Origin: Patescibacteria group bacterium
GTDB lineage: Bacteria > Patescibacteriota > Patescibacteriia > UM-FILTER-42-10
Assembly: GCA_018825385.1 (NCBI GenBank)
Contig: JAHJEX010000054.1
Span: 1 to 39,872, forward strand
DNA length: 39,872 nt
Direction: 5' to 3'
Part shown: positions 7,984 through 39,790 of the stretch, in pieces
Position numbering within the stretch: position 1 is the stretch's first letter
Layout: every line of letters begins with the position of its first letter
Position numbers and translations under genes: made by a program
Notes under the pieces: model-generated
Seen by the model: only the letters and a program-made list of their open reading frames with translations
The model's database searches: none
Told to the model about the DNA's origin: nothing

Positions 7984-8950
7984 TATTTTTGTATCTCAAG
8001 AATCTGTATATATTATATGCATTTGGCATAGTGACAATTAAAGATAATAGCAATTTAGAAAAGTAATTGCCATCATAACTTTTCAAAGAGTCTTTGGCGA
8101 ATGAGTATTGCTGCTTTTGCAAATAAGATAACACATTTAGCTCAATTACTTTATTATTTAATTCTTTTTCGCTTATTTCTAAAAAATCAAGGGTATTGTT
8201 CAAATTCTCAAAAACCAATTTATCATAAGAATCATGATTTAATTTCGTTCTTTCAAAATAGAATTTACTTGCTAGCGATTTATTTAATAATTGCTGTTTT
8301 AAATTTATACTAGATACACTCTTTTCATTCAAAACACGATGATATATTAATGGCTGATTGAGATTATCAATTAGAAGATTCTTGGTTAGTAGATTCAAAT
8401 AGAAATCATAATCTTGGGAAAAGGTAAATTTTTCACGATAAAGCATTCCTTTTATATTTCTAAACAATATTGTTGGATGGATTAGGCAATTTTTTGACTC
8501 CAAAACTCTTTTAATATTATTAGAACCATAAACTAGTTTTACAGTATTTAATTTATTTCCATTCGCGTCAATTTTGATTGCCTCGCTACCCAATAAGAAA
8601 ACATTTAAATTTTCCTCTAAAAAATTATACTGCTTTTCAAATCGATCAGTGAAAGCGATATCATCACAATCCATTCTTGCAATATACTTTCCTTTGGAAC
8701 ATTTTAATCCTATATTCAGCGACTTTGTAAGACCAAGGTTAACTGGGTTATTTATTACAGTAATTCTTTTATCTGATTCAGCAAATCCGTTGATAATTGT
8801 TAATGAATTATCTATTGATCCGTCATTTATAATAATAAATTCAAAATTACTGAATGATTGATCTAAAACTGACTTAATAGCTTCAGTAAGATAATTTTCA
8901 CCATTAAAAGCCGACATGATAACAGATATCGCTGGATTGGACATAGTCAT
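7973..8950 (-). CDS. glycosyltransferase family 2
   Basis: ORF; ISVIMSAFNGENYLTEAIKSVLDQSFSNFEFIIINDGS, ARMDCDD. Confidence 0.92.
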   Translation of the reverse strand: MTMSNPAISVIMSAFNGENYLTEAIKSVLDQSFSNFEFIIINDGSIDNSLTIINGFAESDKRITVINNPVNLGLTKSLNIGLKCSKGKYIARMDCDDIAFTDRFEKQYNFLEENLNVFLLGSEAIKIDANGNKLNTVKLVYGSNNIKRVLESKNCLIHPTILFRNIKGMLYREKFTFSQDYDFYLNLLTKNLLIDNLNQPLIYHRVLNEKSVSSINLKQQLLNKSLASKFYFERTKLNHDSYDKLVFENLNNTLDFLEISEKELNNKVIELNVLSYLQKQQYSFAKDSLKSYDGNYFSKLLLSLIVTMPNAYNIYRFLRYKNNGS

Positions 8951-8951
8951 A

Positions 8952-9962: not shown

Positions 9963-9975
9963 CTGTATTAGTAAA

Positions 9976-10929
9976 TTAAAATTTTTCTGCTAATATATTT
10001 TTTATTATGACCCTTCTTCTATTAAATTCAATGCGCTTAATTTTACCGAATACTAATTGTAGAAATGAAATCAATAAGTGCACTATAAATCTGACAAAGA
10101 ATCCTACTTTTAAAACTATGTAATCAAAATATAGTTTATGCTTTCTAAAAAACTTTAACGAAGAAATGCAGTAGTTTCTACTATAATTATAAAAATCAAG
10201 TTTATTTAATGACTGTTGTTTAATGTGATAAAAGGGGATATCAGCTTTATACAATATTTTCTTTCCTAGTTTTTCAATTCTGTAGGATAGATCAACATCA
10301 TTATAAAATAAGGGAAAATTACGTTCATCAAACAAGTATTGCAATTTATCAATCAATTTTCTGTTCATTATTATGACTGCACCAGGCGCCTGTTCAATAT
10401 AAAAGTCTTTCTGAAAGTCCTTATTTAAAGATAGATACGCCTTAACATTAGGCAAAAGCCTCAAAATACTAAGTTGCCTTGAAAGACCAGTAGCTAATAA
10501 TGTGAAAGCAGAGGGAAAGCTGCGATACATGGTGTTTTGCACTGTGCCATCTAGATTAATCAGTTTGCCAGTCATAACTTGCTGATTTTTTTGCATCATG
10601 AAATCTAGCAGCCTATCGATTGACCCTTCTGGAACAATTATGTCGGGGTTCAGCAATAGAATATATTTTCCCTTAGATGCTTTGTATGCCTGATTATTGC
10701 CACCAGCAAAATAATTGTTTGAATTATTCCTTATCAGCTTAATATGAGAATACTTATTTTCAATCAATTCGGGCGATCCATCAGCAGAATTATTGTCAAC
10801 GACAATTATTTCATAACTATGACGATTTATAGTCTGTATTAAAGATTCGAGGCATTTAATGATAATATCTCGGCAATTCCAGTTTACTATTAATATTGAT
10901 AATTCAGTTTCTTTAGGAGCTGTGTTCAT
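9976..10929 (-). CDS. glycosyltransferase family 2, WbbL/rhamnosyltransferase-like
   Basis: ORF; LSILIVNWNCRDIIIKCLESL, VVDNNSADGSPELI, FAGGNNQAY, LLLNPDI; typical of WbbL-type proteins. Confidence 0.85.
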   Translation of the reverse strand: MNTAPKETELSILIVNWNCRDIIIKCLESLIQTINRHSYEIIVVDNNSADGSPELIENKYSHIKLIRNNSNNYFAGGNNQAYKASKGKYILLLNPDIIVPEGSIDRLLDFMMQKNQQVMTGKLINLDGTVQNTMYRSFPSAFTLLATGLSRQLSILRLLPNVKAYLSLNKDFQKDFYIEQAPGAVIIMNRKLIDKLQYLFDERNFPLFYNDVDLSYRIEKLGKKILYKADIPFYHIKQQSLNKLDFYNYSRNYCISSLKFFRKHKLYFDYIVLKVGFFVRFIVHLLISFLQLVFGKIKRIEFNRRRVIIKNILAEKF

Positions 10930-11797
10930 TATTTTTTACTGTTACTACTAATCTAGATGATCTTTTGAATAGATATGGAATCACAGCAAAAGGAAACAAT
11001 AGCGCAGTGAATAACAAGTAATATTTGTAATTCAATCTTGGAAATTTCAATTTAAAGAAATTATATAGTTCATTAACTGTAAATTCGTTTTTGACGGTTG
11101 TTACAAATGAAGGATCGGCAAACAATATTTTGATAGACTTTTCAGAAAAAATATTTAGATGTCTTGGTGCATCAAATACGTAAGTGTGATTTTTAAACCA
11201 CCTTAGAAATAAAAATGTTGAATTAGGAGTCTTAATAAAAATTTGCCCATTGTCATTAATAAATCCTTTAATTTTATTTACAATTTGTTGAGGATGATAA
11301 AAATGTTCTATTACATGACTCATTATGATAAGGTCATATTTTTCCTCAAAAACCAAATCTTCAAAATTGCCTATCTTTATGTCAATTCCTATTTTGGATA
11401 ATGCTTGCATTTCCATCTCGTCAATGTCGGTAGCAGTCACTTTGTACCCTTTCCGAAAAAAATATTTTGAGAAAAGCCCGCTACCTGCGCCTATCTCAAG
11501 TATTCTAAAATCTTTTCTATTTTGTACTTGACTTAGCACTTTATCTATCAATCGTATTGCTAATAGTTTCCTAATTTTATTAAATAATTTGTTCTCGAAT
11601 TTGCTGTAATTTTTAGGATAAACAAATGCTATATCTTTTTGGTTAAATGGATTGCCTAAGAATAAGTTGTCACATTTAGTGCACTTATTAAAATAAAATT
11701 CTCCAGAAATGCAATTGTATGGATCTTTTATACCTGTATAAAATCTTTCTTTAATCTCTCCACTTTTGCAAATGGGACAGTTTAACAAATTTTTCAT
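10913..11797 (-). CDS. SAM-dependent methyltransferase with N-terminal zinc ribbon
   Basis: ORF; CPICKSGE...CTKCDNLF zinc-ribbon cysteines, ILEIGAGSGLFSKYF, DLIIMSHVIEHFYHP. Confidence 0.85.
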   Translation of the reverse strand: MKNLLNCPICKSGEIKERFYTGIKDPYNCISGEFYFNKCTKCDNLFLGNPFNQKDIAFVYPKNYSKFENKLFNKIRKLLAIRLIDKVLSQVQNRKDFRILEIGAGSGLFSKYFFRKGYKVTATDIDEMEMQALSKIGIDIKIGNFEDLVFEEKYDLIIMSHVIEHFYHPQQIVNKIKGFINDNGQIFIKTPNSTFLFLRWFKNHTYVFDAPRHLNIFSEKSIKILFADPSFVTTVKNEFTVNELYNFFKLKFPRLNYKYYLLFTALLFPFAVIPYLFKRSSRLVVTVKNNEHSS

Positions 11798-12819
11798 AAT
11801 TTCAGCATATTTATTTTATTTACCAGATCACTGGTATCTTTATTCCTAACATAAATTCCATTATCTTTTAAAATTCTACGATTTTCAGGTAAATCAAAGC
11901 AAATAACTTTTAATCCCATAGCTATATAATTATACAACTTGGCGTTTGCTTCACCGCTATCCGTAGTTTTTAGGGAAATTGCTATATTGCCTAGCTTCAA
12001 ATAAGCGGGTGCTTGCTCATATGGTATTTTTCCAGTAAAAGTAATTCTATTTAGTATACCAAGTTCTTTTGCAATTCTTTGGCAATCCTTTTCTGGGTAT
12101 CCCATAATTAGAAAATGAAACCTATAATCAGTAGATGCAATCGCATTTAAAAGATAATCAAGTCCTTTATATAGTTGTAGGCCACCTAAATAAGTAATCA
12201 CTATTTTATTTTTTGGAAGGTCCAGTTTTGCTGATTGAACTTGAGAATTAAACAGTGTATCATTGGGAAGATCTTCTTCAACGACAATATTTTTAACTTG
12301 AAAATTATCTAAAAGAATTTTTTTTAATCCTTCATTACTAGCAATTATCTCATCAGATTTTTGTATAATAAATTTCTCTAAGCGATAAACTATCTTAAAT
12401 ACCAGACTATTTTTCTTAATTGTCTTCTGCGTAGTCAATTCACCAGTCAAAGAACCTTGGTTGTCAAAAATTAGTTTTTTTCTAAAAATTATTTTCAGAA
12501 AATATCCAATAAAAGCTCCCTCATATAAGTGAGCATATACGACATCATATTTACCAATCAGCATTTCCTTAATAGCTTTGAACAATAAAAGAAAATCTAA
12601 AAATGGTTTGTAAAAAGAAAAACCGGGCTTTGTTTGATGGTAGCCAGGTACTTTAGATATTCTTTTCGTTTCTACCCCATCCATATCTCTTCCTAATGGA
12701 TAGGTGAGTAATAGGACATTATGTCCAATATCTTGTAAATTAAGATAACTATTCAGTACCCTTATATGACAACCCCGATCGGAAAAAAATGGCGTTGGCG
12801 CCAGCATTAATAGCTTCAT
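11794..12819 (-). CDS. glycosyltransferase family 4
   Basis: ORF; APTPFFSDRGCHIRV N-terminus, IVITYLGGLQLYKGLDYLLNAI, KLYNYIAMGLKVICFDLPENR. Confidence 0.87.
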   Translation of the reverse strand: MKLLMLAPTPFFSDRGCHIRVLNSYLNLQDIGHNVLLLTYPLGRDMDGVETKRISKVPGYHQTKPGFSFYKPFLDFLLLFKAIKEMLIGKYDVVYAHLYEGAFIGYFLKIIFRKKLIFDNQGSLTGELTTQKTIKKNSLVFKIVYRLEKFIIQKSDEIIASNEGLKKILLDNFQVKNIVVEEDLPNDTLFNSQVQSAKLDLPKNKIVITYLGGLQLYKGLDYLLNAIASTDYRFHFLIMGYPEKDCQRIAKELGILNRITFTGKIPYEQAPAYLKLGNIAISLKTTDSGEANAKLYNYIAMGLKVICFDLPENRRILKDNGIYVRNKDTSDLVNKINMLKL

Positions 12820-13802
12820 TAGGATTTAGCATCTGAATTAGCTTCATCATCTTCATACTTATTCTCGATTATTTCCTTTATTGAGTAAGTACTCCTTTTT
12901 TCGTTATAGTATGTCTTAACAGCAATATCTGCCAGCAAACCGGAGATGAAAAGCTGAATCCCTGTTAAAACCAGAAAGACAGCAATTAATGGCCAAATAC
13001 TATTTTGAAGAGCAATTTTACCTAATATTCTTGCCACTGCAAGATACGTTCCTAAAAGCATTCCTAGAGTTCCAGATATGATTCCCAAACCTCCAAATAA
13101 GTGAAGTGGCCTCCCTGAATATTTCCGCCAAAACCAAACTGAAATCATATCGATTAAACCTTTTAATACTCTTTTCCAGTTGTATTTTGTTTTGCCTGTG
13201 GTTCTGGGGCGATGATTGACCTTTATTTCAGCAATTCTAAATCCCAGCCATCGAAGAATCCCAGGAATAAATCGATGAATTTCTCCGTAGAGAGTAAGAT
13301 TTTTAAAGCATTCAGCCTTATACGCTTTTAAAGAGCACCCTGAATCGTGTATTTTGTCATTGATAAAAAATTTTCTCAAAAAATCTGCACCTCGAGAGAA
13401 AAATCTTTTTGAGAAATCATCCTTTCTGTCAATCCTCCAGCCAGAAACCATATCATAACCCTCAGACATCTTTTTAATTAGTTTTGGAATATCTACAGGG
13501 TCGTTTTGGCCATCTCCGTCCATAGTTATGAATATCTCTCCCTCTGCATTCTTGAATCCTGCGTCTAATGCTGCAGTTTGACCGAAATTTTTTCTAAACC
13601 TTATTATCTTTATAGGTGATAGAGAATTAAGTTTTTCAAAAGTTTTGTCGATTGAGCCATCATCAACAAAAATAATTTCATAGGGTTGCTGCATTTTATT
13701 CATCGCGTCTTTGATCTCACTAAAAAGCGGCTGCACTGATTCTTCCTCATTGTAAACCGGAACTATTACAGAGTATTTATATTTTTTCTCAATATCACTC
13801 AT
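12819..13802 (-). CDS. glycosyltransferase family 2, DPM1/GtrB-like with C-terminal transmembrane helices
   Basis: ORF; YSVIVPVYNEEESVQPLFSEI, IIFVDDGSIDKTF, ITMDGDGQNDPVDIPKLI, GCSLKAY, two C-terminal hydrophobic segments. Confidence 0.93.
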   Translation of the reverse strand: MSDIEKKYKYSVIVPVYNEEESVQPLFSEIKDAMNKMQQPYEIIFVDDGSIDKTFEKLNSLSPIKIIRFRKNFGQTAALDAGFKNAEGEIFITMDGDGQNDPVDIPKLIKKMSEGYDMVSGWRIDRKDDFSKRFFSRGADFLRKFFINDKIHDSGCSLKAYKAECFKNLTLYGEIHRFIPGILRWLGFRIAEIKVNHRPRTTGKTKYNWKRVLKGLIDMISVWFWRKYSGRPLHLFGGLGIISGTLGMLLGTYLAVARILGKIALQNSIWPLIAVFLVLTGIQLFISGLLADIAVKTYYNEKRSTYSIKEIIENKYEDDEANSDAKS

Positions 13803-13807
13803 AAGTT

Positions 13808-14761
13808 TTACTTATAGTAGTCTTTATACCAGTTAATAAAATTTTTAATTCCCAATTCCACACTGGTTTTAGGATTGAAGCCAAGCATTTTGTTTGCCTT
13901 CGTTATATCAGCATATGTTTTCACAACGTCGCCAGGCTGAAGCGGCAATAAATTCCTTTTTGCTTCAATTCCAAGCTCTTTTTCAATAACTGAAATGAAG
14001 TATTCAAGCTCAACCGTCTGGGAATTACCAAGATTAAAGATTTCATAATCGTGTGGTTTCTCCAAAGATTGTATTACTCCATCAATAATATCATCTATGT
14101 AGGTAAAATCACGCTGATGCTTTCCATGATTGTAAACATCTATCGGTTCACCGCTAAGGATTTTCTTTGTAAATTTATAATATGCCATATCCGGCCTACC
14201 AAAAGGACCATAAACTGTAAAAAATCTTAGGCCAGTTACATTTAGTTTATATAGGTTGTGATAAACATGTGCAAGCAATTCAGATGACTTCTTTGTGGCC
14301 GCATATACCGAAACAGGGGAGTCTACAGGATCATTTTCAGAAAATGGTACCTTTCTGTTCCCACCGTATACTGAAGACGACGATGCGAATACGAAGTTGC
14401 TGATATCGTTGTCTTTTGACAGCTCCAGTAGGTTTAGTGTGCCTTGGATGTTTACTTCCTGATAGCTAAAAGGATCATTAATCGAGGCTCTTACTCCGGC
14501 CCTGGCTGCTAAATGACAAACTCGATCTATCTTGTATTTCTTGAATATCTTCTTTAAGCCTTCGAAATCACAAATGCTTATTCGATGGACTGGAAAGGTG
14601 TAATCTCCTAAAAACTTTGATATTCTGTCTTCTTTGATTCGCGGGTCATAGTAGTCATTGAAATCATCCACGCAAACTATGCTTTCTCCACTTTCTAACA
14701 GTCTTTTCGATGTGTGAGATCCAATAAAACCTGCGCCACCAGTTACAAGAGTTGTACCCAT
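13808..14761 (-). CDS. NAD-dependent epimerase/dehydratase, UDP-glucuronate 4-epimerase-like
   Basis: ORF; VTGGAGFIGSHTSKRLLE, VDDFNDYYDPRIKEDRI, YAATKKSSE, FTVYGPFGRPDMA. Confidence 0.88.
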   Translation of the reverse strand: MGTTLVTGGAGFIGSHTSKRLLESGESIVCVDDFNDYYDPRIKEDRISKFLGDYTFPVHRISICDFEGLKKIFKKYKIDRVCHLAARAGVRASINDPFSYQEVNIQGTLNLLELSKDNDISNFVFASSSSVYGGNRKVPFSENDPVDSPVSVYAATKKSSELLAHVYHNLYKLNVTGLRFFTVYGPFGRPDMAYYKFTKKILSGEPIDVYNHGKHQRDFTYIDDIIDGVIQSLEKPHDYEIFNLGNSQTVELEYFISVIEKELGIEAKRNLLPLQPGDVVKTYADITKANKMLGFNPKTSVELGIKNFINWYKDYYK

Positions 14762-27424: not shown

Positions 27425-27706
27425 CTAATTTTGTGTTTCAATTTCTACGACTTTAGTGCTCTGTAGTCGGCCGTCATATTTTCTTAGCTTCTTGCTTTTG
27501 AATGTGACAACACCGTTGACTAATGCATAAAGGGTATCATCAGCTCCACGCTTTACATTCTTTCCGGCATGGAATTTTGATCCTCGCTGTCTTACGATAA
27601 TTTGGCCAGCCTTAGTAAACTGCCCTCCAGAGACTTTTACGCCTAGTCGTTTAGATTGTGAATCTCGCCCGTATTGTGTGGAACCACCTGATTTTGTATG
27701 TGACAT
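27425..27706 (-). CDS. rpmA: 50S ribosomal protein L27
   Basis: [58 protein letters not shown]. Confidence 0.96.
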
Positions 27707-27737: not shown

Positions 27738-27766
27738 ATTCTAGATAAAACATCCAAGGCTGTCAA
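27738..27766 (-). promoter_or_regulatory. rpmA promoter candidate (TTGACA-N17-TAGAAT)
   Basis: minus-strand TTGACA (plus TGTCAA 27761-27766), 17-bp spacer, TAGAAT (plus ATTCTA 27738-27743). Confidence 0.75.
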
Positions 27767-27775: not shown

Positions 27776-28978
27776 CTATTCAGTTTTTTTTGGGCGAAAG
27801 ACAACTAGCACAATCACCACGATCAAAAGTAGTACACCAAAGATTGCTACGGTTGATGTAAGTGAAGTTTTCTCTATATCTGAAAGCTCTGGGTTAGGTA
27901 ATTCAAGTTTTTTCTTCACGATGTGACCTGAATTATCAGCAAGCAACGTATAGCCATTATTAGCTTTAAATCCGTCTGTAAGCCCATCGTTACTTGTATC
28001 AGGGTCATATCGGTTTGACCCAAAAGCGTCTTCTACAGTATCCGGAATCCCATCGTTGTCCGAATCAATAGCCTGCTCAGCACCTGCAAATCTTGCACCA
28101 TTAATTGCTTGAATAATCTTTTGATCAGGCGAGCGAGCTGGAGTGTTGTTATCATCGATAAGCGGGTTGAATTCGTGTTCTTTCTCAAAACCGTCGGTAA
28201 GTCCGTCATTATCTGTATCTGGATCATTTTGGTCTGTCCCTGTTTCAATTTCCTCAACATCAGATAAGCCGTCCTCATCAGTATCAGGAGTATTTGAGAC
28301 TGGTGCATTTAAATTGGAATTAGTATTTCCATTATCATTAGTAAGTATGGGACTATTTGCATTTCCATTAATATTCAGATTCAAATTGGATGGAATGTTT
28401 ACGTTAGCATTTTCAGAATTAGTGTTTTGATTAGCATTGAAATTAGTATTTTCATTTGTATTTATGTTAGTGTTCTGATTTGTGTTTTGATTTTGGTTCA
28501 CATTATAGTTCCCAGGAGGTGTGCTGTTGGTATTTTGGTCAAAATCTGGAATACTACCGCCTGCGTTATCAACGTATATCCTATTAATATCACTGAGATA
28601 AGTTGAGTTATTTGCATCAACAGCAACAGCGTGTACACGATAAACACCGTCAATTGACTCATCAGTACTCCATGAATAATCCCATACATTATTTCCAGCA
28701 TCTACACCTTCGTAGGTAAAGGTGAATCTGCCAACTTCATCTATAAAGTAAAACTCAACCTTAGACACAGCCGAACTAGTTTGCGCACTGGCATATATCT
28801 CACCACTCAATAAAGTGCCATTTGATGGATTCAGAAGAGAAACTTGGATTTCAGCACTCATGACCTGAGATGCGAAAAATAAATTAATAAAGAGCAGGCC
28901 CGCAACTGTTATTACTACAATCAAAAATGTTGGAATAGTGATGGTTTTAAGTATTCTCATGATTACTTTTCCTCCCAA
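27776..28978 (-). CDS. secreted/membrane protein with Ig-like domain, Asn-rich low-complexity linker, thrombospondin type 3-like calcium loops and C-terminal TM
   Basis: ORF (likely start Met7, ~28960); NQNQNTNQNTNINTNENTN, DTDEDGLSDVEE, DTDNDGLTDGFE, DSDNDGIPDTVED, C-terminal VAIFGVLLLIVVIVLVVFRPKK. Confidence 0.8.
   Translation of the reverse strand: MGGKVIMRILKTITIPTFLIVVITVAGLLFINLFFASQVMSAEIQVSLLNPSNGTLLSGEIYASAQTSSAVSKVEFYFIDEVGRFTFTYEGVDAGNNVWDYSWSTDESIDGVYRVHAVAVDANNSTYLSDINRIYVDNAGGSIPDFDQNTNSTPPGNYNVNQNQNTNQNTNINTNENTNFNANQNTNSENANVNIPSNLNLNINGNANSPILTNDNGNTNSNLNAPVSNTPDTDEDGLSDVEEIETGTDQNDPDTDNDGLTDGFEKEHEFNPLIDDNNTPARSPDQKIIQAINGARFAGAEQAIDSDNDGIPDTVEDAFGSNRYDPDTSNDGLTDGFKANNGYTLLADNSGHIVKKKLELPNPELSDIEKTSLTSTVAIFGVLLLIVVIVLVVFRPKKTE
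28307..28537 (-). repeat. Asn/Thr/Gln-rich low-complexity coding tract
   Basis: protein residues ~148-224 dominated by N with recurrent NTN/NQN triplets. Confidence 0.85.
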
Positions 28979-30447
28979 GAAATAATTGCGTATTCACCAA
29001 CTGTAGGAAAATTCGGGGGTGGTGCGTAAAAAAGATTAGAATCAAAATTCAAATTTCTAAACAGATAACCAGTTCCATCTGTATAAGCAAATCCATAGCG
29101 GTCATTTGAGGCAAGTGAACCAAACAGCGTTAGAGTGTCTCTGTATACATAGCTTGCGCAACCAGCAGGACTTTGAGTGTATCCAGACCTGTTTGGGTAA
29201 TAATATCGTCCTACACGGCCATTTTGCGCTATTACAGACGCATCAATCCTCAGGTTGTCTTCACTGAAAAAGCCAACAGAGATGTCAGTTTGTGCGATAA
29301 GGCCTATTGCGTCAGTTCCATCATAATTTATGTATTCCAAATCGTTATTAACTACGATAGTCGCATCTCCTGATGCCAGAGGCTCTCTGGCAGCAATAAG
29401 CGTAACTCTCTGGCCATCAACTTGTCCGTCAACCCAAACATCATCCTCCACAAAAATAATGTAATTAGTTGGCATTGGCAAGCCTATTGAACTCTGGCTT
29501 TCATAAGTAAACGCACTTTCATTTCCAATTGACCAAATATCTGAATAAGCAAACCACCAAAACCACCATCGATAGGAGCAACTACTTTGGCTGGTAACAC
29601 GAGTAATATCTACTGTGTCATCCGGATTAAAATGTATGTGATAGCCTTGAGCACCTGAAGCACCAAGATATATTCCATTGTCAATTGCTCTTGCCTTCAG
29701 ATCAGCTAAATCTGTTGTTATGCCATTAAAATCAATTGGCGCTACGGGAAAAAGTCTGCCAGCTCCAAATACATCTGGTCGGCTGGGAACAGCAGCAGGT
29801 GGCTGGGGGTCAACAGGCGAAATGTGAGTATGCACTCCAAACTCATCACCACCACCATGGTCCGGATCATTGTATTGATCACGGGTTGAGGAAATAATAT
29901 TATGTGCGTACCCATCAAATCTTATTCCATCGTTGGAATGAACAGGACCCCATATTTCTGTGCCCGTGCCAAAACGCATTTCATCGTTTGCAACCACAGC
30001 AAAACTAGAAAAAGAGGGATTACCTAATTGAAGTGCAATTGTCCTTTTGGTTTTTGGGAAATCTATTAAATAGCCAGTTGACTCTATCGTAACGACTGTA
30101 GAGCCACTTTCCGGTGGAATGATATTTAGGGAATATTCGCCAATCAAATTTCCATTAATGTCATAATATTCGTGAACATACGGACCCGGTTCTCCAGTAC
30201 CATCTGTAAAATCATCAGTAACGTGGGCTAGATGCCAGCGATAGTATGTGATACCAGCCTCTGCAATTTCCAATGCTTTTTGATCTCTAATTTTTGCATT
30301 TGTAACTTTTGCCTGACTAACAACATATCCAGAAGCAGCAACAAGTAAAACAACAAATATACTTGAAAATACCAAAAGCATCACTAGTGCAAAACCAGTC
30401 TGATTTACATTGGTTAGATGTTTAAACTTGTATCTTGATTTGCTCAC
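28963..30447 (-). CDS. PilX/GspK-like minor pilin
   Basis: ORF; prepilin-like QTGFALVMLLVFSSIFVVLLVAASGYVVSQAK lacking Glu at +5; PilX-like N-terminus. Confidence 0.7.
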   Translation of the reverse strand: MSKSRYKFKHLTNVNQTGFALVMLLVFSSIFVVLLVAASGYVVSQAKVTNAKIRDQKALEIAEAGITYYRWHLAHVTDDFTDGTGEPGPYVHEYYDINGNLIGEYSLNIIPPESGSTVVTIESTGYLIDFPKTKRTIALQLGNPSFSSFAVVANDEMRFGTGTEIWGPVHSNDGIRFDGYAHNIISSTRDQYNDPDHGGGDEFGVHTHISPVDPQPPAAVPSRPDVFGAGRLFPVAPIDFNGITTDLADLKARAIDNGIYLGASGAQGYHIHFNPDDTVDITRVTSQSSCSYRWWFWWFAYSDIWSIGNESAFTYESQSSIGLPMPTNYIIFVEDDVWVDGQVDGQRVTLIAAREPLASGDATIVVNNDLEYINYDGTDAIGLIAQTDISVGFFSEDNLRIDASVIAQNGRVGRYYYPNRSGYTQSPAGCASYVYRDTLTLFGSLASNDRYGFAYTDGTGYLFRNLNFDSNLFYAPPPNFPTVGEYAIISWEEK

Positions 30448-30451
30448 AGTA

Positions 30452-31045
30452 TTAGAAGTTTGTTTTTAGATTTCTTATCATAATGCTGGTTTCTATAGAT
30501 ATTTGGTCGGGTGGAAGATTTGGATCAATATCTACATCGAATTTCATATGCACTAGTCGCACTTCTGCTAAATTGATCGGGTGAGTTAACGGGTCCTCAA
30601 TTCCTGTATAGTTTTCATCAAAGTACGTAAAAATTGAATCAATATTTCTAATATTTTCAACAACAGTTTCTATTACTTCGTCTGCACTCGGAGGGTCTAT
30701 GATACCTCTTTGAAAGTTTGTTCCAGAAAGAAAATACCTTAACCTCTCTCTGCTGTCGTCACCATCAACATCAGAGTAAAATGTAATTGATTGTTCCTCA
30801 GCATTGGCAAGAAGATAAGCACCGGTATCGGCGTTCTGTGCAGCTCTTAATTCTTTAGCTACTGATGTCATTACTTTGCGTAATGTATCCTGCGCCAATG
30901 CTTGATCACGTGACTGATTGAATAAATCGTGCCCTTGCAAAACAAATTGATAAATTATAGTCGTGAGTACCCCCATAATCCCGACAACAACAATTATTTC
31001 AATTAATGTAAATCCCGGCTTTGATTTTTGATGTTTCAAAATCAT
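30452..31045 (-). CDS. prepilin with type III N-terminal cleavage/methylation motif (PilW/GspJ-like)
   Basis: ORF; KPGFTLIEIIVVVGIMGVLTTIIYQFVLQGH. Confidence 0.85.
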   Translation of the reverse strand: MILKHQKSKPGFTLIEIIVVVGIMGVLTTIIYQFVLQGHDLFNQSRDQALAQDTLRKVMTSVAKELRAAQNADTGAYLLANAEEQSITFYSDVDGDDSRERLRYFLSGTNFQRGIIDPPSADEVIETVVENIRNIDSIFTYFDENYTGIEDPLTHPINLAEVRLVHMKFDVDIDPNLPPDQISIETSIMIRNLKTNF

Positions 31046-33247
31046 TTATAATGGATTTAGAAAGTATTCCGATTGTGTAGTTCCGTTAACTGTAACGGAA
31101 GTATTCAATACTTCATAACCGGCAAGAGTGATATCTATTGAATAGGTGTCAGCGTCCAGTCCGCTGAAAAATACTTGTCCAGGAGGAATGCATGCTGATG
31201 TGTAGCCGAGCTGTAGGCTGGTGACAATGGGGGAGTAAGCTATGTTTTCACTGGACAAGAATACTTTATACTTTGCATATTGGTCGCCGTTATGGCCCTC
31301 ATGAATTTGGGTCCCACTTGTTGCATAGTAACTTCCACTTGTTCCATCTGGGCCGATAAAACCCCATGTTGAGTTGTCCGTATTAGTAGCTAGTTGAACT
31401 TTCATGCTTTCTAAACCAGTTTCAGGTTGCTGTGCAAAAGGGGTCCAGGTTAGTGTTCCAAAAGTGCTTGTAGTGCCTGTGTTAAAAGAAGAAGATGTTA
31501 GTGATCCAGATGATTGAAATGCTTCAATACTGTATGAAATTGTTATATCTTGAATTGCTGGTGTTACTAGAGGATCAATCGTTGAAAGTTCAGCCCTAAA
31601 CATCAAATCTCCACCAGTAGTAACGAAATCATGCTCTACGCCAACTGTCACTGGCTCAAAATTAATTCCACCGTTTGCCGATATGAAATATGAAATTGTT
31701 TGACCATCTAACGTCTCATTCACAGAAAGCGTTGCTTTTGTTAGCTTACCAAGTTCTGTATTAAGCTTTGTAGTTTGAGCTACTCCATTAAGCATATATT
31801 CACCAGCATTGTCCGCAAGCTGTATTTGCTCAAAGGCTGTGTTCCAATCTGCAGTAGTTGCAGTTGCATCTTTATAGTTATCTGTTGAAAAACTATCGAA
31901 AAAATTACCAGGAGTTTCAAAAGAAGAAAGAATAAGGTTCCCTGGCGTCGAAGTAACATCAACTGTTCCACTATCAATCTCGTATTTAGTTGAATCACTA
32001 TAGTCTGATTGGCCACTTCCTCCTGACCAGTCATTCTGCAGGAAAAAACCATAGCCAGTTATTTTGGATTCATCGTAGCCGGATTTACTCAATCTAACAT
32101 CTGCAGCAGTTAATGCGATCTCAGTTCCTGCATCTTTGACGGAAACGCGTAATGAATTAGTAGTATGATCAGCTAAAACAAGTGATGTAGTTTGAAATGT
32201 GTTGGGCAAAATATTAAGTAAGACCGGAGGAATTATTCCAGCAATATCATAATCAGTTGCTGTTTCTAGCAAAGTGTAGCTGTCCCATTCCAAATCATCT
32301 AATTCAAGAGTTCCTTCTGAATTTGTGGGTGGTTCAGAAGAATACTTTAAAGTATCAGGATCAGTTCCTATCAGTTTTTCTCCCCAGATTGCAAGAGAAA
32401 TATTTGGCATCATTTCGCATGCGCTACCAACAGTGTTAATGGTTAGTGAACTTACAAGATCAATTGCAAAACTGGCTTCTGTGACATCTTCTTCAACAAT
32501 TGTTAAGTCCGGCTTGATGGGGTGGGGGAGATTAATTAGATCAACTGCGTAAGTTGAATCATTGCTGTACGAATCTTTAGAAACCTCTACGTGATAGCCT
32601 CCAACACTTGGTGGTAAGCTAAGAACCTGCAGATTTCCATCATTGTCTGTTGTATTTGTAATGTCTATCCAAGGATCTACAAGCGTGTTTGTAATATGTA
32701 CTGTTGCCTGCGGAACAGGTTGTCCCGAGGCATTGAAAACTTGTATTAAAAGTGAGCCTGTATTCTCTGCAGACTCCAATCCTTTTGGCGCAACTAGCGT
32801 TGATAGCAATACAGGATCTGCGAGCGGTTTATTCCACTTAACACTAACTTCAACCTTCTTATAGTCGTTTGGGGTCGTGTCTTGAGGTTTTCCCACGATT
32901 GTACCGGCAGCATTGCCATCAAAAGGATCGTCGTGAAAGTCAATTCGAGTCTCAACGACAAATTCGAAATTATTTCTTAGCAGAGTTGTGGTGGACGGAA
33001 GATTACCAGGAGGCCAACCAGTGGTCGTTCCAACATCTGCATAGGGCATATTTCGTACTATTTCCAGCTTCTCGTTGGCGATGGCAGTCGCCGTCACTTT
33101 TGATCTTGACATAGCAAGCGCCTGGATGCCTCTATCAAAGCCTGAAATTATAAAAACACTGGATGTAACAAAAATTCCTATCACAACAATCAATTCGATT
33201 AGACTAAAACCTTTTTGTTGTTTCATTGGTATAATTGCACGTTGCAT
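31046..33247 (-). CDS. large prepilin (733 aa) with type III motif and carboxypeptidase-regulatory-like beta domain(s)
   Basis: ORF; KGFSLIELIVVIGIFVTSSVFIISGFDRG; SLLIQVFNASGQPVPQATVHITNT; possible start Met8 (~33226). Confidence 0.82.
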   Translation of the reverse strand: MQRAIIPMKQQKGFSLIELIVVIGIFVTSSVFIISGFDRGIQALAMSRSKVTATAIANEKLEIVRNMPYADVGTTTGWPPGNLPSTTTLLRNNFEFVVETRIDFHDDPFDGNAAGTIVGKPQDTTPNDYKKVEVSVKWNKPLADPVLLSTLVAPKGLESAENTGSLLIQVFNASGQPVPQATVHITNTLVDPWIDITNTTDNDGNLQVLSLPPSVGGYHVEVSKDSYSNDSTYAVDLINLPHPIKPDLTIVEEDVTEASFAIDLVSSLTINTVGSACEMMPNISLAIWGEKLIGTDPDTLKYSSEPPTNSEGTLELDDLEWDSYTLLETATDYDIAGIIPPVLLNILPNTFQTTSLVLADHTTNSLRVSVKDAGTEIALTAADVRLSKSGYDESKITGYGFFLQNDWSGGSGQSDYSDSTKYEIDSGTVDVTSTPGNLILSSFETPGNFFDSFSTDNYKDATATTADWNTAFEQIQLADNAGEYMLNGVAQTTKLNTELGKLTKATLSVNETLDGQTISYFISANGGINFEPVTVGVEHDFVTTGGDLMFRAELSTIDPLVTPAIQDITISYSIEAFQSSGSLTSSSFNTGTTSTFGTLTWTPFAQQPETGLESMKVQLATNTDNSTWGFIGPDGTSGSYYATSGTQIHEGHNGDQYAKYKVFLSSENIAYSPIVTSLQLGYTSACIPPGQVFFSGLDADTYSIDITLAGYEVLNTSVTVNGTTQSEYFLNPL

Positions 33248-33255: not shown

Positions 33256-33263
33256 ATTATACC
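33256..33263 (-). promoter_or_regulatory. extended -10 promoter element of the prepilin operon (TGGTATAAT)
   Basis: minus-strand TATAAT (plus ATTATA 33256-33261) preceded by TGG; -35 match weak. Confidence 0.5.
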
Positions 33264-33334: not shown

Positions 33335-34519
33335 ATGAATTCAAAAATAAAAAATAGAATATACCTTGATTATGCTGCAACTACACCTTTGGATCCATTG
33401 GTAGTAAAGGCAATGGAGCCATATTTTGTTACCAAATTTGGTAATCCAAATAGTCCTCATGGTTTTGGACAGGAGGCATTGGCAGCTGTTGATCTGGCAA
33501 GGGAAGTGCTTGCCAGATTTTGTAATTGCTCTATGGGGGAGATTATTTTTACATCTGGTGCAACTGAAAGCAATAACCTTGCTATCCGTGGAGTTATCAG
33601 GAAGTATCAGCAAATAATTGAAAAACCAGAGATTATCACAACAAGAATTGAGCACCCCTCTGTTTTAAACACATGTCGTGATATGGAAAATCAAAATATG
33701 AAGGTGAAATATCTTTCAACAGGTAGTGATGGAATAGTGAAAATTGCAAATTTTAAGAAGCTAATCACTGATTCTACAGCACTAGTAAGCGTAATGTATG
33801 CAAATAATGAAATCGGTACAATCCAACCGATCAGAGAAATTGGAAAACTATTGGAGAATATCAACAAAAATCGCAAGACACCTGTATTGTTCCACACTGA
33901 TGCTGTCCAAGCTGCAGGAACATTAAAATGTGATGTTGACTATTTGCATGTTGATTTGCTCTCACTCTCCGGGCATAAAATTTATGGTCCAAAGGGAGTT
34001 GGTTCGCTATATGTTAAAAACGGTACACCAATTCATGGAATTCAAACTGGTGGTGATCAGGAATATACTTTAAGGGCAGGCACAGTTCCAGTTCCCAATA
34101 TTGTAGGTTTCGGAAAGGCGGTCGATTTGCTCATCTATCATCAAGAGCAGGATAAAAAAAGGATGGAATTTCTGCGTAATTGGACATTCGAGCAGATTGT
34201 AAAATTAATGCCGGATATTAAAGTATCTGGTGACTTAAATAATTCAAGACTTGCTAACAATCTACATTTGCGCGTCGATAAAATAAATGGTGGAGACGTT
34301 ATGTTTCTACTAGACACACAAGCAAGTATAGCCGTTTCTACTGGTTCAGCATGCACGGCCGGAGCACCAGAGCCTTCAAAAGTTTTAACTGAAATTGGGC
34401 TGAATCAAAAACAGTCCCAAGAAGGAGTTCGGGTTACTTTAGGTAGAATGACAACAAAATCAGAAATGAAAAAATTTATTTCCTGTTATATTCACGCTAT
34501 AAATACTTTGAAGGAGTAA
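33335..34519 (+). CDS. cysteine desulfurase (NifS/IscS family)
   Basis: ORF; IYLDYAATTPLDPLV, FTSGATESNNLAIRG, HTDAVQAAG, SLSGHKIYGPKGVG (PLP Lys), STGSACTAG (catalytic Cys). Confidence 0.95.
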   Translation: MNSKIKNRIYLDYAATTPLDPLVVKAMEPYFVTKFGNPNSPHGFGQEALAAVDLAREVLARFCNCSMGEIIFTSGATESNNLAIRGVIRKYQQIIEKPEIITTRIEHPSVLNTCRDMENQNMKVKYLSTGSDGIVKIANFKKLITDSTALVSVMYANNEIGTIQPIREIGKLLENINKNRKTPVLFHTDAVQAAGTLKCDVDYLHVDLLSLSGHKIYGPKGVGSLYVKNGTPIHGIQTGGDQEYTLRAGTVPVPNIVGFGKAVDLLIYHQEQDKKRMEFLRNWTFEQIVKLMPDIKVSGDLNNSRLANNLHLRVDKINGGDVMFLLDTQASIAVSTGSACTAGAPEPSKVLTEIGLNQKQSQEGVRVTLGRMTTKSEMKKFISCYIHAINTLKE

Positions 34520-34520: not shown

Positions 34521-34811
34521 CTACTGAAATGGATTTGAAGAAGGAAAATATATTCTAGTTGATTTTTTAACTTTTTCCTCAGAGTGAGTTATTACTTGCT
34601 CAAAAAGAGTTTGGTTGACAACCTCTTTTTTTCTTTGGATCAAAGCTGGATCAATCGATGTTTGATTAAAAAATGGTATAAATAAGTTTTGATAGAGGAA
34701 GAAAAGGATATAAAAACAGTAAAGAATGATTGCAAGATAAACAACCCGGTGGCCATTACGTTTCACATATGGGAGGTATTTGCCAAAAGAAATTGATGTT
34801 TTCATTTTCAT
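34521..34811 (-). CDS. small single-TM protein following pilO (positional PilP-like)
   Basis: ORF with start reassigned to Met19 (cat at 34809-34811), just after the pilO stop at 34813-34815; one TM (VVYLAIILYCFYILFFLYQ). Confidence 0.6.
   Translation of the reverse strand: MKMKTSISFGKYLPYVKRNGHRVVYLAIILYCFYILFFLYQNLFIPFFNQTSIDPALIQRKKEVVNQTLFEQVITHSEEKVKKSTRIYFPSSNPFQ
34602..34632 (+). terminator. intrinsic-terminator-like hairpin downstream of the cysteine desulfurase, inside the convergent gene
   Basis: AAAAAGAG-tttg-GTT/gac.. paired with AACCTCTTTTT followed by T-run; also T-rich on the opposite strand. Confidence 0.5.
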
Positions 34812-34812
34812 A

Positions 34813-35358
34813 CTATTGCCAATAAACTTTTGATGAAATTTGGACACTAATTTTACCGACTGCATCTTCGTTTGGAGAATTTTCAGAGGAAAGTGTCATT
34901 GTGTCGATAATTAGATAAAAAGGTTGTTGTTCAATCGCTAAGGCCCAATTGATTAATTCTGTGTACGATGAATTATATTTGATGTTAATAGTGCTCATGA
35001 ACAAGCCTGACTCAAGAGCAATTGGATTTGATAAGCTAAGATCTTGATTATTTATATTGCTTTCTCGAGCTATATTTTCGAGCACTGTGATCAGTTCTAA
35101 AGTATCCTGCTGCGAAAACAATGTTGACGAAACCCTGCCATGATTTGCAGCAATTTCCATTATCTGACGTTCCAGATGTACAAGATCCTGTCTCTGCTGT
35201 GTTATGAATTCATAATTTACCCTCTGATCGTAAATATCTTGATCAAGAGAGATAATGTTACGTTGTTGCGGCAAAATCACTGCAAAAACAATTACCAGTA
35301 CTGCAGTTATCCCTAGTGCTGCAATAATCAAAAGTTTAATTTTTGGTGTTAGCTTCAT
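34813..35358 (-). CDS. pilO: type IV pilus assembly protein PilO-like
   Basis: ORF; N-terminal TM then coiled coil, ferredoxin-like C-terminus, position after PilN. Confidence 0.75.
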   Translation of the reverse strand: MKLTPKIKLLIIAALGITAVLVIVFAVILPQQRNIISLDQDIYDQRVNYEFITQQRQDLVHLERQIMEIAANHGRVSSTLFSQQDTLELITVLENIARESNINNQDLSLSNPIALESGLFMSTINIKYNSSYTELINWALAIEQQPFYLIIDTMTLSSENSPNEDAVGKISVQISSKVYWQ

Positions 35359-35921
35359 AGTGAGCCTACCTCAATCTGAGGATTAATAGTTACTTGTCCG
35401 CTGAGTGTGAATGAAATATTTTCTTTCGAAAGTAAATTTGAAATAGGGGACTCGATATTACTATAAAAAGGAGATTGTTCTAGATTATTCTTGAATGCCA
35501 ATAATGAATCACGCGTGTCAGCATTGCCGGAAAATTGGAACGTCAAATTGGTTTTTTGGATTGTAAAAGAGGTTAGCGTAACACCATTTGCCACAGTCTT
35601 TGCAGTTTCAATCAAAACAGGTGACCATGCGACATATTCAGATTGTATTGCACTAACATTTCCTAAAAGCGAATTAAAGTTTTGCACGGTCTGACCAAGA
35701 TTCAATGATTTTTCATTCTCGGTTTGCTCTTTTAAAGTGAGAGTGTCTGACGCAATAGTATCCAGCTTACTTTGCAAAACCATTTGAGAGGCAAATAGGG
35801 TTGCCGCAATAATTATTAATACCACCACAGACAATACTATTATCGACTGCACTAATCGATAATTCTTTTGGAATTGATTCGCGTCCCGCTGTGCGGGGGA
35901 TGTAAAATTAAGTGTTATCAT
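35355..35921 (-). CDS. pilN: type IV pilus assembly protein PilN-like
   Basis: ORF; N-terminal TM and coiled-coil, position between pilM and pilO. Confidence 0.78.
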   Translation of the reverse strand: MITLNFTSPAQRDANQFQKNYRLVQSIIVLSVVVLIIIAATLFASQMVLQSKLDTIASDTLTLKEQTENEKSLNLGQTVQNFNSLLGNVSAIQSEYVAWSPVLIETAKTVANGVTLTSFTIQKTNLTFQFSGNADTRDSLLAFKNNLEQSPFYSNIESPISNLLSKENISFTLSGQVTINPQIEVGSL

Positions 35922-36963
35922 GATTTAATGCCCTAAGTGCAAGCCCAATAGCAGTTGCATAAGATGATTGTGTTTCTACGGTGATAAGATTTGTGTCCTT
36001 ATTTGAAATATTTAGGAGTGAATCTCCCTTTTGGATCTTCAAGCCAAGTCTCAAAACTAATTCATTTTGTAGCTCAAGCAGGTTTGCGCCACCGCCAGTT
36101 AGTAGGATGCTTGAAACTGGGTTTTGGCCAGTGTGATGTGCCTGATAAAATTCAATTATTTGCTTCACTTTTTCAACTAATGATTCTAATTGATTGCTAA
36201 GTATCGATGCTACTGCTCCTTTACCAACATTTTTGCTTAAACCCCCTATCCTTTTTGCTTTCTCTGCCTCCTCATAAGAAAGTGACAGATTTTTCATAAT
36301 CAAACTTGTCATTAGATTGCCTGAAATCTCAGTAAGAGCAGATGTAAATTGAATAGTTGAATGATCAACAATAACAAAGCTTGTACGATCAAGACCAATA
36401 TCGATTACTAGAACGCTCTCCTTTGAATTTAGAGGTTCTTCAGGCATTATGGCTCGAACAATTGCAGCTGATTCAATTTCTAAAACGTACGGAACTAGCT
36501 TCGCTTTGCCAATTACATCTTGATAGGATTCTACGATTGACTTTGGTACTGCTCCTACTAAGATGGATTCACTCTCTGTCCCTTTGTTTACTATTTGCCA
36601 GTCAATATACATTTTTGAGAGATCGTCAGGTATATGGTTTGCAAGTTCAGACTTAATGATTTCGTCTGATGGTTCAGAATTTTCTTTCATGTGCAAGACT
36701 TTTATGAAACTTTTCCGCTCTGGAAGACACGATACAACCTTTTTGGAATGTGGTCTCCGTGGTTTTGCGGCTTGAACAAGATTAGAGATTATAGATTGCA
36801 GCGAGTCCGGTTTGACAATTTCGCCTTCATTGATAATGCCGGGAGGGACCGGAACTTCACTTACAGATTCAATAGAAACACTTTTCCTTTTCTTTTCCAA
36901 GGAAACAAGTCTTAACATCCTGTCACTTATATCTAAACCAAACATTGAATTATATTTGTCCAA
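35908..36963 (-). CDS. pilM: type IV pilus assembly ATPase-fold protein PilM
   Basis: ORF; FGLDISDRMLRLVSLEKK, VLVIDIGLDRTSFVIVD, ILLTGGGANLLELQNEL. Confidence 0.92.
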   Translation of the reverse strand: MDKYNSMFGLDISDRMLRLVSLEKKRKSVSIESVSEVPVPPGIINEGEIVKPDSLQSIISNLVQAAKPRRPHSKKVVSCLPERKSFIKVLHMKENSEPSDEIIKSELANHIPDDLSKMYIDWQIVNKGTESESILVGAVPKSIVESYQDVIGKAKLVPYVLEIESAAIVRAIMPEEPLNSKESVLVIDIGLDRTSFVIVDHSTIQFTSALTEISGNLMTSLIMKNLSLSYEEAEKAKRIGGLSKNVGKGAVASILSNQLESLVEKVKQIIEFYQAHHTGQNPVSSILLTGGGANLLELQNELVLRLGLKIQKGDSLLNISNKDTNLITVETQSSYATAIGLALRALNHDNT

Positions 36964-38053
36964 CTAATGAATAAATAGGCATTATAACCGCAAGGGCAAC
37001 TGCACCAACGGCAACTCCAATCACGAGCATTAAAACTGGTTCAATAACAGCAGCCAAATTCTCCATGGTATTGGATACTTCTTCTTCATAAAAATTAGCC
37101 ATGTCTTCTGAAGTTGTATCTAGTGTTCCGGATTCTTCTCCAATATTTATAATTTGTGTGATTAATGGAGGAAACAGATCAGGATTCTTTTCTAGCGTTT
37201 CTCGGACCGAGATTCCCTTTTTTAATTCTTCTGCGGATTGCTTTAAATAGTCCTTATAAATAACATTCTTAGATGCCCTCGAAATAATCAAAAAAGTCTC
37301 AACAATTGGAATATCTGTTTTTAGTAGCGAGCTTAAGCTTCTAGTGAAATTAGCCAGATTAACCTTTTTTATAATTGGTGAAACAATTGGTATTTTAAGC
37401 AGCAAGGCGTGATATTGCCTTTTGCCTTTTACAGTTTTTAAGTAACGAGCCAAAAGGAAAATGACTAAAGCGACAGCGATTATAACATAAATTAAATATG
37501 TAGACATGAAGTCGGTCAATCCTATCAAAACTCTTGTAGGTAAAGGTAAGTCGGCTTGTGCGTCCGTGTAGAGTGATGTGATGTTCGGTAGAACGAAGAT
37601 CACCATGGCTATGCCAATTGCAACCATAGCGATTGTAACTATAGCAGGATAAGTCAGTGCATTTTTTACTTTTGCTCTAAGTTCGTGACTTTTTTTAAGT
37701 TGAATACTAAGTCTGCGTAATACTTCATCCAACTTACCACTTGCTTCGCCAGCTTCTAACATGCTAACAAAAGTTTCGGAAAATGTTTTGGGATGTTTTC
37801 CCGCAGCCTTTGAGAGTGGAGTGCCTTTTTCAACATCTTCACGCATTTCTTGGATAGTTTTCCTGAATCCTTCATGTTCAACTTGCAGATTAATTGTTTC
37901 TAAGGCTTTTGCAAGAGAAAAACCAGTTCTTACCATGATTTCTAATTGCTGAACAAAGAAAAGTCTTTGGACAAGCGTAATTCTTTTCCGAGGGCCAAGA
38001 AAACCTTGCTTTTTTTTCTTTTGCTTGTTTGCTTTTTTTTGTTCTTCTGCCAT
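36950..38053 (-). CDS. pilC: type IV pilus inner membrane platform protein PilC (GspF family)
   Basis: ORF; FVQQLEIMVRTGFSLAKALE, FVSMLEAGEASGKLDEVL, NIGEESGTLD, EPVLMLVIGVAVGAVALAVIMPIYSL. Confidence 0.95.
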   Translation of the reverse strand: MAEEQKKANKQKKKKQGFLGPRKRITLVQRLFFVQQLEIMVRTGFSLAKALETINLQVEHEGFRKTIQEMREDVEKGTPLSKAAGKHPKTFSETFVSMLEAGEASGKLDEVLRRLSIQLKKSHELRAKVKNALTYPAIVTIAMVAIGIAMVIFVLPNITSLYTDAQADLPLPTRVLIGLTDFMSTYLIYVIIAVALVIFLLARYLKTVKGKRQYHALLLKIPIVSPIIKKVNLANFTRSLSSLLKTDIPIVETFLIISRASKNVIYKDYLKQSAEELKKGISVRETLEKNPDLFPPLITQIINIGEESGTLDTTSEDMANFYEEEVSNTMENLAAVIEPVLMLVIGVAVGAVALAVIMPIYSLVGQI

Positions 38054-38056
38054 TGC

Positions 38057-39790
38057 TTAATCCTTTGTTACACGGAGCACTTCCTCAATTGTAGTTATCC
38101 CGCTTTTTGCTTTTATAAACCCATCTTGGATCAGACTAATAAATCCTTGCTTATTTGCTTCTTCATAAAGTTTTTCAGGAGGTGCTTGATTAACAATGAG
38201 TTCCGCCATTGCTTTATTAATCTCCAAAATTTCATAAATGCCCATCCTCCCTTTATATCCTTCGTGATTGCATTCTTTGCATCCATGGCCGCGATAAAAA
38301 AGTAATGAACTCATTGGTGAATCAGCCGAATCAATAATTCCCTCTCTTTCCATTACTGACAGAATATCCTTAAAATTAAGCTGTGATTCCAATTGAGTAA
38401 TATTACTCTTAGTTAGTTCATAACTCTCTATACAATGAATACATACTTTTCTTACTAAACGCTGTGCCACAATAACGTTTGTAGTAGAGGCAACAAGAAA
38501 GGGAGGAATGCCCATTTCCTGAATTCGGGGAAGTGCACCAACAGCGTCATTGGTATGAAGCGTTGATAATACTAGATGCCCCGTCATGGCAGAATGGACA
38601 CCAATCTCCGCAGTTTCTTTATCGCGGATTTCTCCAACCATGATAATATTTGGATCCTGCCTGAGCAATGAACGTAATCCTTGAGCAAATGTTAGGCCAA
38701 TCCGGGGATTAACTTGCGTTTGATTTATCCTAGGCATTCGGTACTCGATTGGGTCTTCAATTGTAGAAATATTTACCTTTGGATTATTCAGAATATTCAG
38801 GATAGTATAGAGTGTAGTCGTTTTGCCTGACCCTGTAGGCCCCGTAACTAAAATCATCCCATGAGGCTTTTTTACCGCTCTTTTAATTATTTTCAGCGGA
38901 TTTGCTAAAAATCCTAGTTGTTCTAATGTAAGAATCTGTGATGATTGGTCTAGAAGACGTAAAACAGTTTTTTCCCCGTCAAATATTGGAATAATTGAAA
39001 CACGAAATGATACTTTATATTCCTTAGATTTTATTTTAAATCTGCCATCTTGTGGTAGTCGGTGTTCATCTAGCTTTAGGTTGGCAAGAATTTTAATCCG
39101 AGCAACTATTCCCGAATGGATTTGTTTTGGTAAAGTCATAGCGTCGCGCAATACTCCATCAATTCGATACCTGACAATAACCTCGTTTTCAGCAGGTTCA
39201 ATGTGAATATCTGAAGCATCTTCAAATATTGCATATTCTAAAATCGTATCAACAATTCTTATTACAGGAAGATCCTTTGCTAACTCCTTCAGGGTTCCTT
39301 TCGCTGAATCCTTTTGGGTTTTGTCATCCTCATGAGTCATTTCATCCACCGTTGCCTTTAAACCTTTGTGATACATCTTCAATGCTTCTGTTATCATCTG
39401 GGGAGAAGTTACATACACGCTTGGTTCTTTTCCAGATTTCTTTTTTATGAAATCAAAAATCTCCAAATCCAAAGGATCAAGAGATGCGATCTTTATTTTA
39501 TCGTCTGTCTGGTCAAACGCAATTACATTGTGAGTCTGTGCAATTGATTCAGGTAAGAAATTTAGTATATCCTTTCGGATTGTCAGAGTTTCAAGACTAA
39601 TAAATGGGACATGCAAAGACTTTGCATATAATTCATACAGTGATTTCTCACTTATAATTTTTTCTTTATAAAGATGCTCAACCCAGTCTTTGTTTTGCTT
39701 TTTTGCTTCTGCCTGCGATTCTGATACGTCGGCTTCAGAAAGAATTTTATTTGTGAGTAGGAGCTTCTCTATTTGTTTTAACGGTAGCAT
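38057..39790 (-). CDS. pilB: type IV pilus extension ATPase PilB (GspE family)
   Basis: ORF; ASDIHIEP, MILVTGPTGSGKTTTLYTIL (Walker A), RQDPNIIMVGEIRDKETAEI, zinc CIHC/CKEC motif. Confidence 0.96.
   Translation of the reverse strand: MLPLKQIEKLLLTNKILSEADVSESQAEAKKQNKDWVEHLYKEKIISEKSLYELYAKSLHVPFISLETLTIRKDILNFLPESIAQTHNVIAFDQTDDKIKIASLDPLDLEIFDFIKKKSGKEPSVYVTSPQMITEALKMYHKGLKATVDEMTHEDDKTQKDSAKGTLKELAKDLPVIRIVDTILEYAIFEDASDIHIEPAENEVIVRYRIDGVLRDAMTLPKQIHSGIVARIKILANLKLDEHRLPQDGRFKIKSKEYKVSFRVSIIPIFDGEKTVLRLLDQSSQILTLEQLGFLANPLKIIKRAVKKPHGMILVTGPTGSGKTTTLYTILNILNNPKVNISTIEDPIEYRMPRINQTQVNPRIGLTFAQGLRSLLRQDPNIIMVGEIRDKETAEIGVHSAMTGHLVLSTLHTNDAVGALPRIQEMGIPPFLVASTTNVIVAQRLVRKVCIHCIESYELTKSNITQLESQLNFKDILSVMEREGIIDSADSPMSSLLFYRGHGCKECNHEGYKGRMGIYEILEINKAMAELIVNQAPPEKLYEEANKQGFISLIQDGFIKAKSGITTIEEVLRVTKD

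Follow-up and report, generated by a model that had tools for sequence, protein, structure and literature searches.

What does the type IV pilus of a bacterium from the Candidate Phyla Radiation carry at its tip? Pili in this radiation are commonly linked to contact with hosts and to the uptake of DNA; to our knowledge, they are nearly universal there and their tip receptor is known in hardly any case. The question is raised by a set of pilin genes in a 39,872-nucleotide stretch of DNA (the window; GenBank contig JAHJEX010000054.1), which is part of contig 64 of a 1.27 Mb genome that is 90% complete. The named relatives closest to its PilX protein come from Kerfeld-, Vogel-, Moran-, Falkow- and Magasanikbacteria and other Parcubacteria, which makes the organism a member of the Patescibacteria. 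A first-pass annotation had interpreted four consecutive genes as a pilus-tip and host-attachment module, in which an unrelated calcium-binding protein takes the place of PilY1. Our analysis argues that the first three, pilV-pilW-pilX, probably encode the minor-pilin tip complex of a secretin-less type IV pilus with a ComZ-like solenoid pilin as receptor, whereas the role proposed for the calcium-binding protein was not supported.

The four open reading frames were found where the first-pass annotation had placed them, on the minus strand within 27776-33247, with gaps of 0, 4 and 2 nucleotides between pilV, pilW, pilX and the gene of a TSP3-repeat protein; given this spacing, we read them as one operon. 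The pilV-like gene (31046-33247; 733 residues) and the pilW-like gene (30452-31045; 197 residues; GspJ position) encode proteins with the N-terminal regions KGFSLIELIVVIG and GFTLIEIIVVVG, respectively, both of which score above the cut-off for the N_methyl family PF07963 (E 2e-5 and 1.3e-6) and thus have type III (prepilin) starts. The third gene, pilX (28963-30447; 494 residues; GspK position), begins with TGFALVMLLVFS: the glycine of the cleavage site is kept, Glu5 is missing and a methionine occupies position +5. The earlier observation of Glu5 in PilV and PilW and its absence from PilX was therefore confirmed, and it extends to the relatives of the three proteins. Residue 5 of PilV is Glu in 46, Asp in three and Gln in one of the 50 copies that reach this site, and all 57 PilW relatives have Glu5; PilX and its relatives carry Gly at position -1 in 60/60 and Glu5 in 0/60 cases. 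PilX and GspK, which both lack Glu5, are both placed at the tip of their respective filaments (PMC7541494).

The order of the three genes is conserved as well, and this, like the residue pattern, exceeds what chance would give. We compared the pilX neighbourhoods of 40 related genomes and 20 named contigs, which, minus one duplicate and plus the window, amounted to 60 loci. Genes pilV, pilW and pilX are adjacent in 55 of these, and most of the others lie at contig ends or have an intervening gene. Immediately upstream of pilV stands pilC in 22 loci, and pilM follows directly after pilX in 28. Loci with pilM in this place occur in both main divisions of the PilX tree; the earlier order was therefore probably pilC-V-W-X-M, and the family of the window would have relocated V-W-X to the opposite end of its cluster. 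A PilX of the window's kind is present in 47 of the 115 related genomes that we used for presence counts.

We also predicted the fold of PilX. An AlphaFold2 model, computed with an alignment of 21 relatives (mean predicted local distance difference test score (pLDDT) 82, predicted template modelling score (pTM) 0.78), contains the parts of a pilin, namely a long helix (residues 2-62), four antiparallel strands (77-129) and a C-terminal last strand (474-480). Between these, in order, lie short, regularly spaced strands, a connecting helix and further strands, and the model together with Foldseek delimits a predicted beta-solenoid insert of about residues 143-483 (28999-30021, minus strand) ahead of the last pilin strand. 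When the model was compared with solved structures by Foldseek, the first matches were the three chains of 6qvi, Thermus thermophilus ComZ (E 2.4e-10 to 1.3e-8, probability 1.00); no other solved structure fell under E 0.001, and the next matches, all weak, were ice-binding beta-solenoids. Published work describes ComZ as a pilin of the GspK type whose penultimate and last strands are separated by a beta-solenoid, and the nearest fold of that solenoid is likewise an ice-binding one (PMC6561018). Both the order of elements in the model and its secondary matches are thus as expected of a ComZ-like protein. The alpha-domain insert typical of GspK is not seen in the PilX model, in which the insert is an all-beta solenoid.

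Several results weigh against this assignment. Despite the strong E-values, whole-length template modelling scores between the PilX model and ComZ are low (0.27-0.29), so that the domain placement of ComZ is not reproduced, either because the orientation differs or because it was mis-modelled. A sequence-profile search of the PDB with PilX does not find ComZ. The family PilX_N (PF14341) reaches 16.8 bits in the window, under its cut-off of 25.5, and matches 6 of the 21 PilX relatives (best 1.9e-4); DUF4900 matches a single one of the 21, weakly (E 0.066). Because of the low scores and the failure of sequence searches to retrieve ComZ, we describe PilX, as modelled, as ComZ-like by fold, with orthology to ComZ unproven. 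Five loci (L101, L103, L104, L117 and L119) encode PilX proteins of 593-740 residues, with long added insertions and fragmented matches within the solenoid region.

PilV is a pilin of a different build, in which a non-pilin domain (CarboxypepD_reg, PF13620, E 3.8e-9, residues 169-232, 32552-32743, minus strand) accompanies the pilin start, both over the cut-off. After the N-terminal pilin helix and this carboxypeptidase-regulatory-like domain come Ig-like/SpaA-like and, at the C-terminus, PEGA-like modules. All 17 aligned PilV relatives carry PF13620, to which others add SpaA, SdrD_B, Big_1 or PEGA, and complete copies reach 1526 residues. In the model of PilV, one helix leads into a string of beta domains of uncertain packing (pLDDT 79, pTM 0.48), and Foldseek likens it to the Ig-like domains of sortase-assembled pilins. 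Modular pilins are widespread and PF13620 is among their commonest extra modules (PMC8179133); PilV is accordingly a known kind of modular pilin. Its translation likely starts at ATG 33226 (MKQQKG^FSLIE). An extended -10-like sequence, TGGTATAAT, occupies 33256-33261, eight bases ahead of ATG 33247. If transcription began there, the first pilV ATG would be leaderless, or ATG 33226 would be the start. For PilW, a sequence-profile search of the PDB returned pilin helices only, and the same search with PilV and the TSP3 protein gave nothing useful.

The machinery for such a pilus is encoded just upstream, at 34521-39790 on the minus strand, where family matches identify pilB (38057-39790), pilC (36950-38053), pilM (35908-36963), pilN (35355-35921) and pilO (34813-35358), with pilC and pilM overlapping directly. 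The block ends with the gene of a small bitopic protein (34521-34865). This single-pass protein has no Pfam family, and proteins of about 87-130 residues with one hydrophobic segment stand in the equivalent position of most pilM-pilN-pilO loci. Elsewhere in the genome we found a prepilin peptidase gene and several PilB/PilT-type ATPases, and a search for a secretin yielded none; control genomes responded in each of these searches.

Taken together, we propose that PilV, PilW and PilX would form a tip complex of the GspI-J-K or PilV-W-X kind on a pilus built by the adjacent PilB, PilC, PilM, PilN and PilO. The trimer would prime the pilus and remain at its tip, with PilX at the very end, as a subunit that keeps the prepilin cleavage glycine and lacks Glu5 would need no other ahead of it. 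The beta-solenoid, which by prediction interrupts the pilin fold as it does in Thermus ComZ, may serve as ligand-binding head, and PilV would supply a stalk, very variable in length, of Ig-like and carboxypeptidase-regulatory modules. Extension by PilB would present the head, and retraction by PilT would draw in whatever surface, host cell or DNA it holds. As the binding cargo would be fused to the pilins themselves, PilY1 would be unnecessary.

As to the ligand, we give slightly less than an even chance to an adhesive tip that holds on to host cells or surfaces, a role already suggested for one Saccharibacterial pilin. Cultured Patescibacteria are episymbionts, and the PilV modules are Ig-like or carbohydrate-binding-like. 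Saccharibacteria possess two pilus systems with PilV/W/X sets, with a jelly roll on PilX1 and a beta-propeller on PilX2; deletion of pilX2 in Saccharibacterium TM7x reduces host binding, which reaches its full level only with PilX2 (PMC12206443). That protein, however, carries its propeller where the PilX of the window has a predicted solenoid. The tip module of the window may serve host attachment, as the first-pass annotation had it.

The rest of the genome also bears on this, as two further sets of V-W-X layout suggest different ligands. The one on contig 60 (L121:13042-15230, L127:831-3074) lies behind the prepilin peptidase gene and comprises three Glu5 pilins and a 747-residue X pilin that has neither Glu5 nor a recognised domain, and near it lies another PilB/PilT/PilC/PilM-O cluster, likewise complete. 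The other, on contig 44 (L122:521-3003), encodes H-, V-, W- and X-like minor pilins, and its X pilin, again without Glu5, resembles a modular adhesive pilin in that it contains a von Willebrand A (VWA) domain (PF00092, E 1.1e-16). Profile comparison of this protein with the PilX of the window revealed no homology past the leader. One tip layout with exchangeable heads fits these sets as well as those of Saccharibacteria.

Alternatively, the tip may bind DNA, PilX being the functional counterpart of ComZ and capturing DNA from outside, which is then drawn to ComEC in cells without ComEA, a reading that we consider possible, at roughly one chance in three. ComZ, the sole strong structural match of PilX, binds DNA, and a case has been made for it as the DNA receptor at the tip (PMC6561018). 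The genome encodes ComEC, and an HHH_3/ComEA-type domain was searched for in it and not found, with control genomes responding to both searches. The same holds for the class: ComEC occurs in 112/115 related genomes, and the only eight HHH_3 matches over the cut-off lie in open frames of 776-1193 residues, not the size of ComEA, so that ComEA-sized HHH_3 proteins are practically absent. A DNA receptor is thus wanting across the class, in line with the remark that ComEA is found in few genomes of the Candidate Phyla Radiation (31%) and that another DNA-binding mechanism may operate (PMC6744442). On the other hand, beta-solenoids have many ligands, and an identity of 13% cannot transfer function. 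Nor is there a correlation, ComEC being near-universal and ComEA near-absent regardless of PilX (47/115 genomes). Comparing the presence of PilX with that of ComEC and ComEA, which we had considered as a test of DNA uptake, is for this reason uninformative. More speculatively, and with more doubt than confidence on our part, ComZ-like solenoid pilins, fused cargo and modular PilV proteins may replace PilY1 throughout the class and act as receptor for DNA or hosts alongside ComEC and without ComEA, with several exchangeable tip sets per genome (the solenoid, the VWA head of contig 44 and the 747-residue pilin of contig 60).

What, then, is the fourth gene of the operon (27776-28960, minus strand)? 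The first-pass annotation was right that a protein with DxDxDG loops starts about where the third pilin stops: its start is most likely ATG 28960, two bases past the pilX stop, which yields 394 residues and is preceded by a ribosome-binding-type site, GGGAGG (28976-28971), within the end of pilX; TTG 28978 is only the mechanical first start of the frame. Bacterial TSP3 repeats (PF18884) match in three stretches (43.9 bits against a cut-off of 25; E 2e-11), and no other family was found at E 0.1 or better, the PilY1 propeller (PF05567) included. The protein begins with a hydrophobic segment at residue 12, a predicted signal peptide, followed by an Ig-like domain (residues 37-133, 28562-28852) recognised by way of one relative (L082), in which Big_7 (PF17957) matches weakly and under the cut-off (E 0.017). 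An Asn-rich linker (residues 134-220, 28301-28561; 38% Asn) leads to four TSP3-type loops within 27962-28285 (28285-28247, 28219-28181, 28066-28028 and 28000-27962), comprising DTDEDG, DTDNDG, DSDNDG and the less canonical DTSNDG. A second hydrophobic segment at residue 370 (27797-27853), by hydropathy a predicted transmembrane anchor, precedes the basic tail FRPKKTE; all these features lie on the minus strand. The sequence thus predicts a membrane-fixed protein with its domains outside. The TSP3 proteins of the two relatives in the family (L081 and L082) are of identical build, anchor included, at about 47% identity.

We consider it unlikely that this protein acts at the pilus tip as an analogue of PilY1, and we rejected it as a candidate. 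It shares the operon and its two-base spacing, with a ribosome-binding site inside pilX, and the linkage persists in all three family members though the protein itself is only ~47% identical among them. PF05567 matched in 0/115 related genomes, which would leave the place of PilY1 empty, but control genomes were silent too, so its absence is unproven. Yet the TSP3 gene follows pilX in just three of the 60 loci (the window and the two genomes of its family), which form a single, fully supported clade of the PilX tree, consistent with one gain; at the other 57, pilM or unrelated genes take that place. The linkage is also weak evidence because the three genomes are syntenic over the whole neighbourhood. 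In addition, the C-terminal anchor and the lack of a propeller domain argue against a PilY1-like position. TSP3 or Asn-rich matches occur in 108/115 related genomes; in the genome of the window itself, at least three further genes encode TSP3 repeats. Beyond the family, the nearest proteins that share this build (L130:5315-7462 and L132:4295-6262) are encoded beside sugar-phosphate genes and outside pilus loci. Linkage in one family and frequent matches away from pili thus leave a PilY1 role unsupported. What is conserved is the three-gene order, not the four-gene unit that had been envisaged, and the fourth protein looks like the independent membrane protein that the first-pass annotation had set against its own proposal. 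The gene is probably a lineage-specific accessory or passenger of the pilus genes; its product may be a surface protein with calcium loops, anchored in the membrane, and could assist at the base or surface of the pilus. The similar proteins L130 and L132 belong to a gene pair conserved in other families (L130:5315-8878 and L132:4295-7647), which couples a large protein bearing a signal peptide and a C-terminal anchor (and, in L130, Ig-like and TSP3 parts) to a protein of 462-467 residues with two hydrophobic segments, beside coenzyme A-binding and RpiB-like genes.

Finally, a type II-secretion pseudopilus is very improbable: the pilins resemble GspI-J-K and GspF models give PilC a good score, but the neighbours match PilM, PilN, PilO and PilB, and there is no secretin or outer-membrane route.

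Around the tip genes, a cysteine-desulfurase-like gene on the plus strand (33335-34519) separates the machinery block from the four-gene set. Next after the TSP3 gene comes rpmA (27425-27706, minus strand), ahead of which a promoter-like site, TTGACA-17-TAGAAT (27738-27766, minus strand), has 11/12 matches in a scan that overall was not above chance; it suggests that the TSP3 gene is the last one of the pilus operon. At 28-14761, the window holds a cluster of glycosyltransferase and methyltransferase genes with 27-30% G+C over most of its length, versus 35-40% elsewhere in the window, possibly exchanged surface-polysaccharide genes.

A search of the open-licence literature found no paper on ComZ or TSP3 in Patescibacteria; as far as that literature shows, a ComZ-like fold in a conserved operon of this group is undescribed. 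The conserved V-W-X unit with its ComZ-like head offers named genes and a concrete, testable fold, and fused heads would explain how a pilus without PilY1 and without secretin could bind something. The locus also cautions against reading a gene that adjoins pilX as PilY1 by position alone.

Among known systems, the FimU-PilV-PilW-PilX-PilY1 set of Pseudomonas and Myxococcus shares the V-W-X order and a PilX without Glu5 with the window. In contrast to it, the window set has neither FimU nor PilY1, its cargo is fused to PilX and PilV, and the adjoining TSP3 protein is lineage-specific. The GspI-GspJ-GspK pseudopilus tip shows the same distribution of Glu5, present in the I and J types and missing in the K type; unlike GspK, however, the K-type pilin of the window has a predicted beta-solenoid instead of an alpha-domain, and the set goes with pilus machinery, not type II secretion. 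The Saccharibacterium N. lyticus TM7x, of the same radiation, has the same kinds of genes, an X pilin with an extra domain and more than one pilin set per genome, although its PilX1 and PilX2 bear a jelly roll and a beta-propeller, respectively, where our model predicts a solenoid. As in modular pilins such as S. sanguinis PilB, a pilin module bears a bulky extra module, for which contig 44 provides the VWA version; the prediction for PilX, though, places the solenoid within the pilin fold instead of attaching it to the end. ComZ (PDB 6qvi) with PilA2 resembles the window set in that minor pilin genes lie side by side and a GspK-like tip position is proposed, and the window PilX lacks Glu5. 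It differs in that PilX is only ~13% identical to it and was missed by sequence search, and in that the pilX gene belongs to a core pilus operon together with a modular PilV, in an organism without a secretin.

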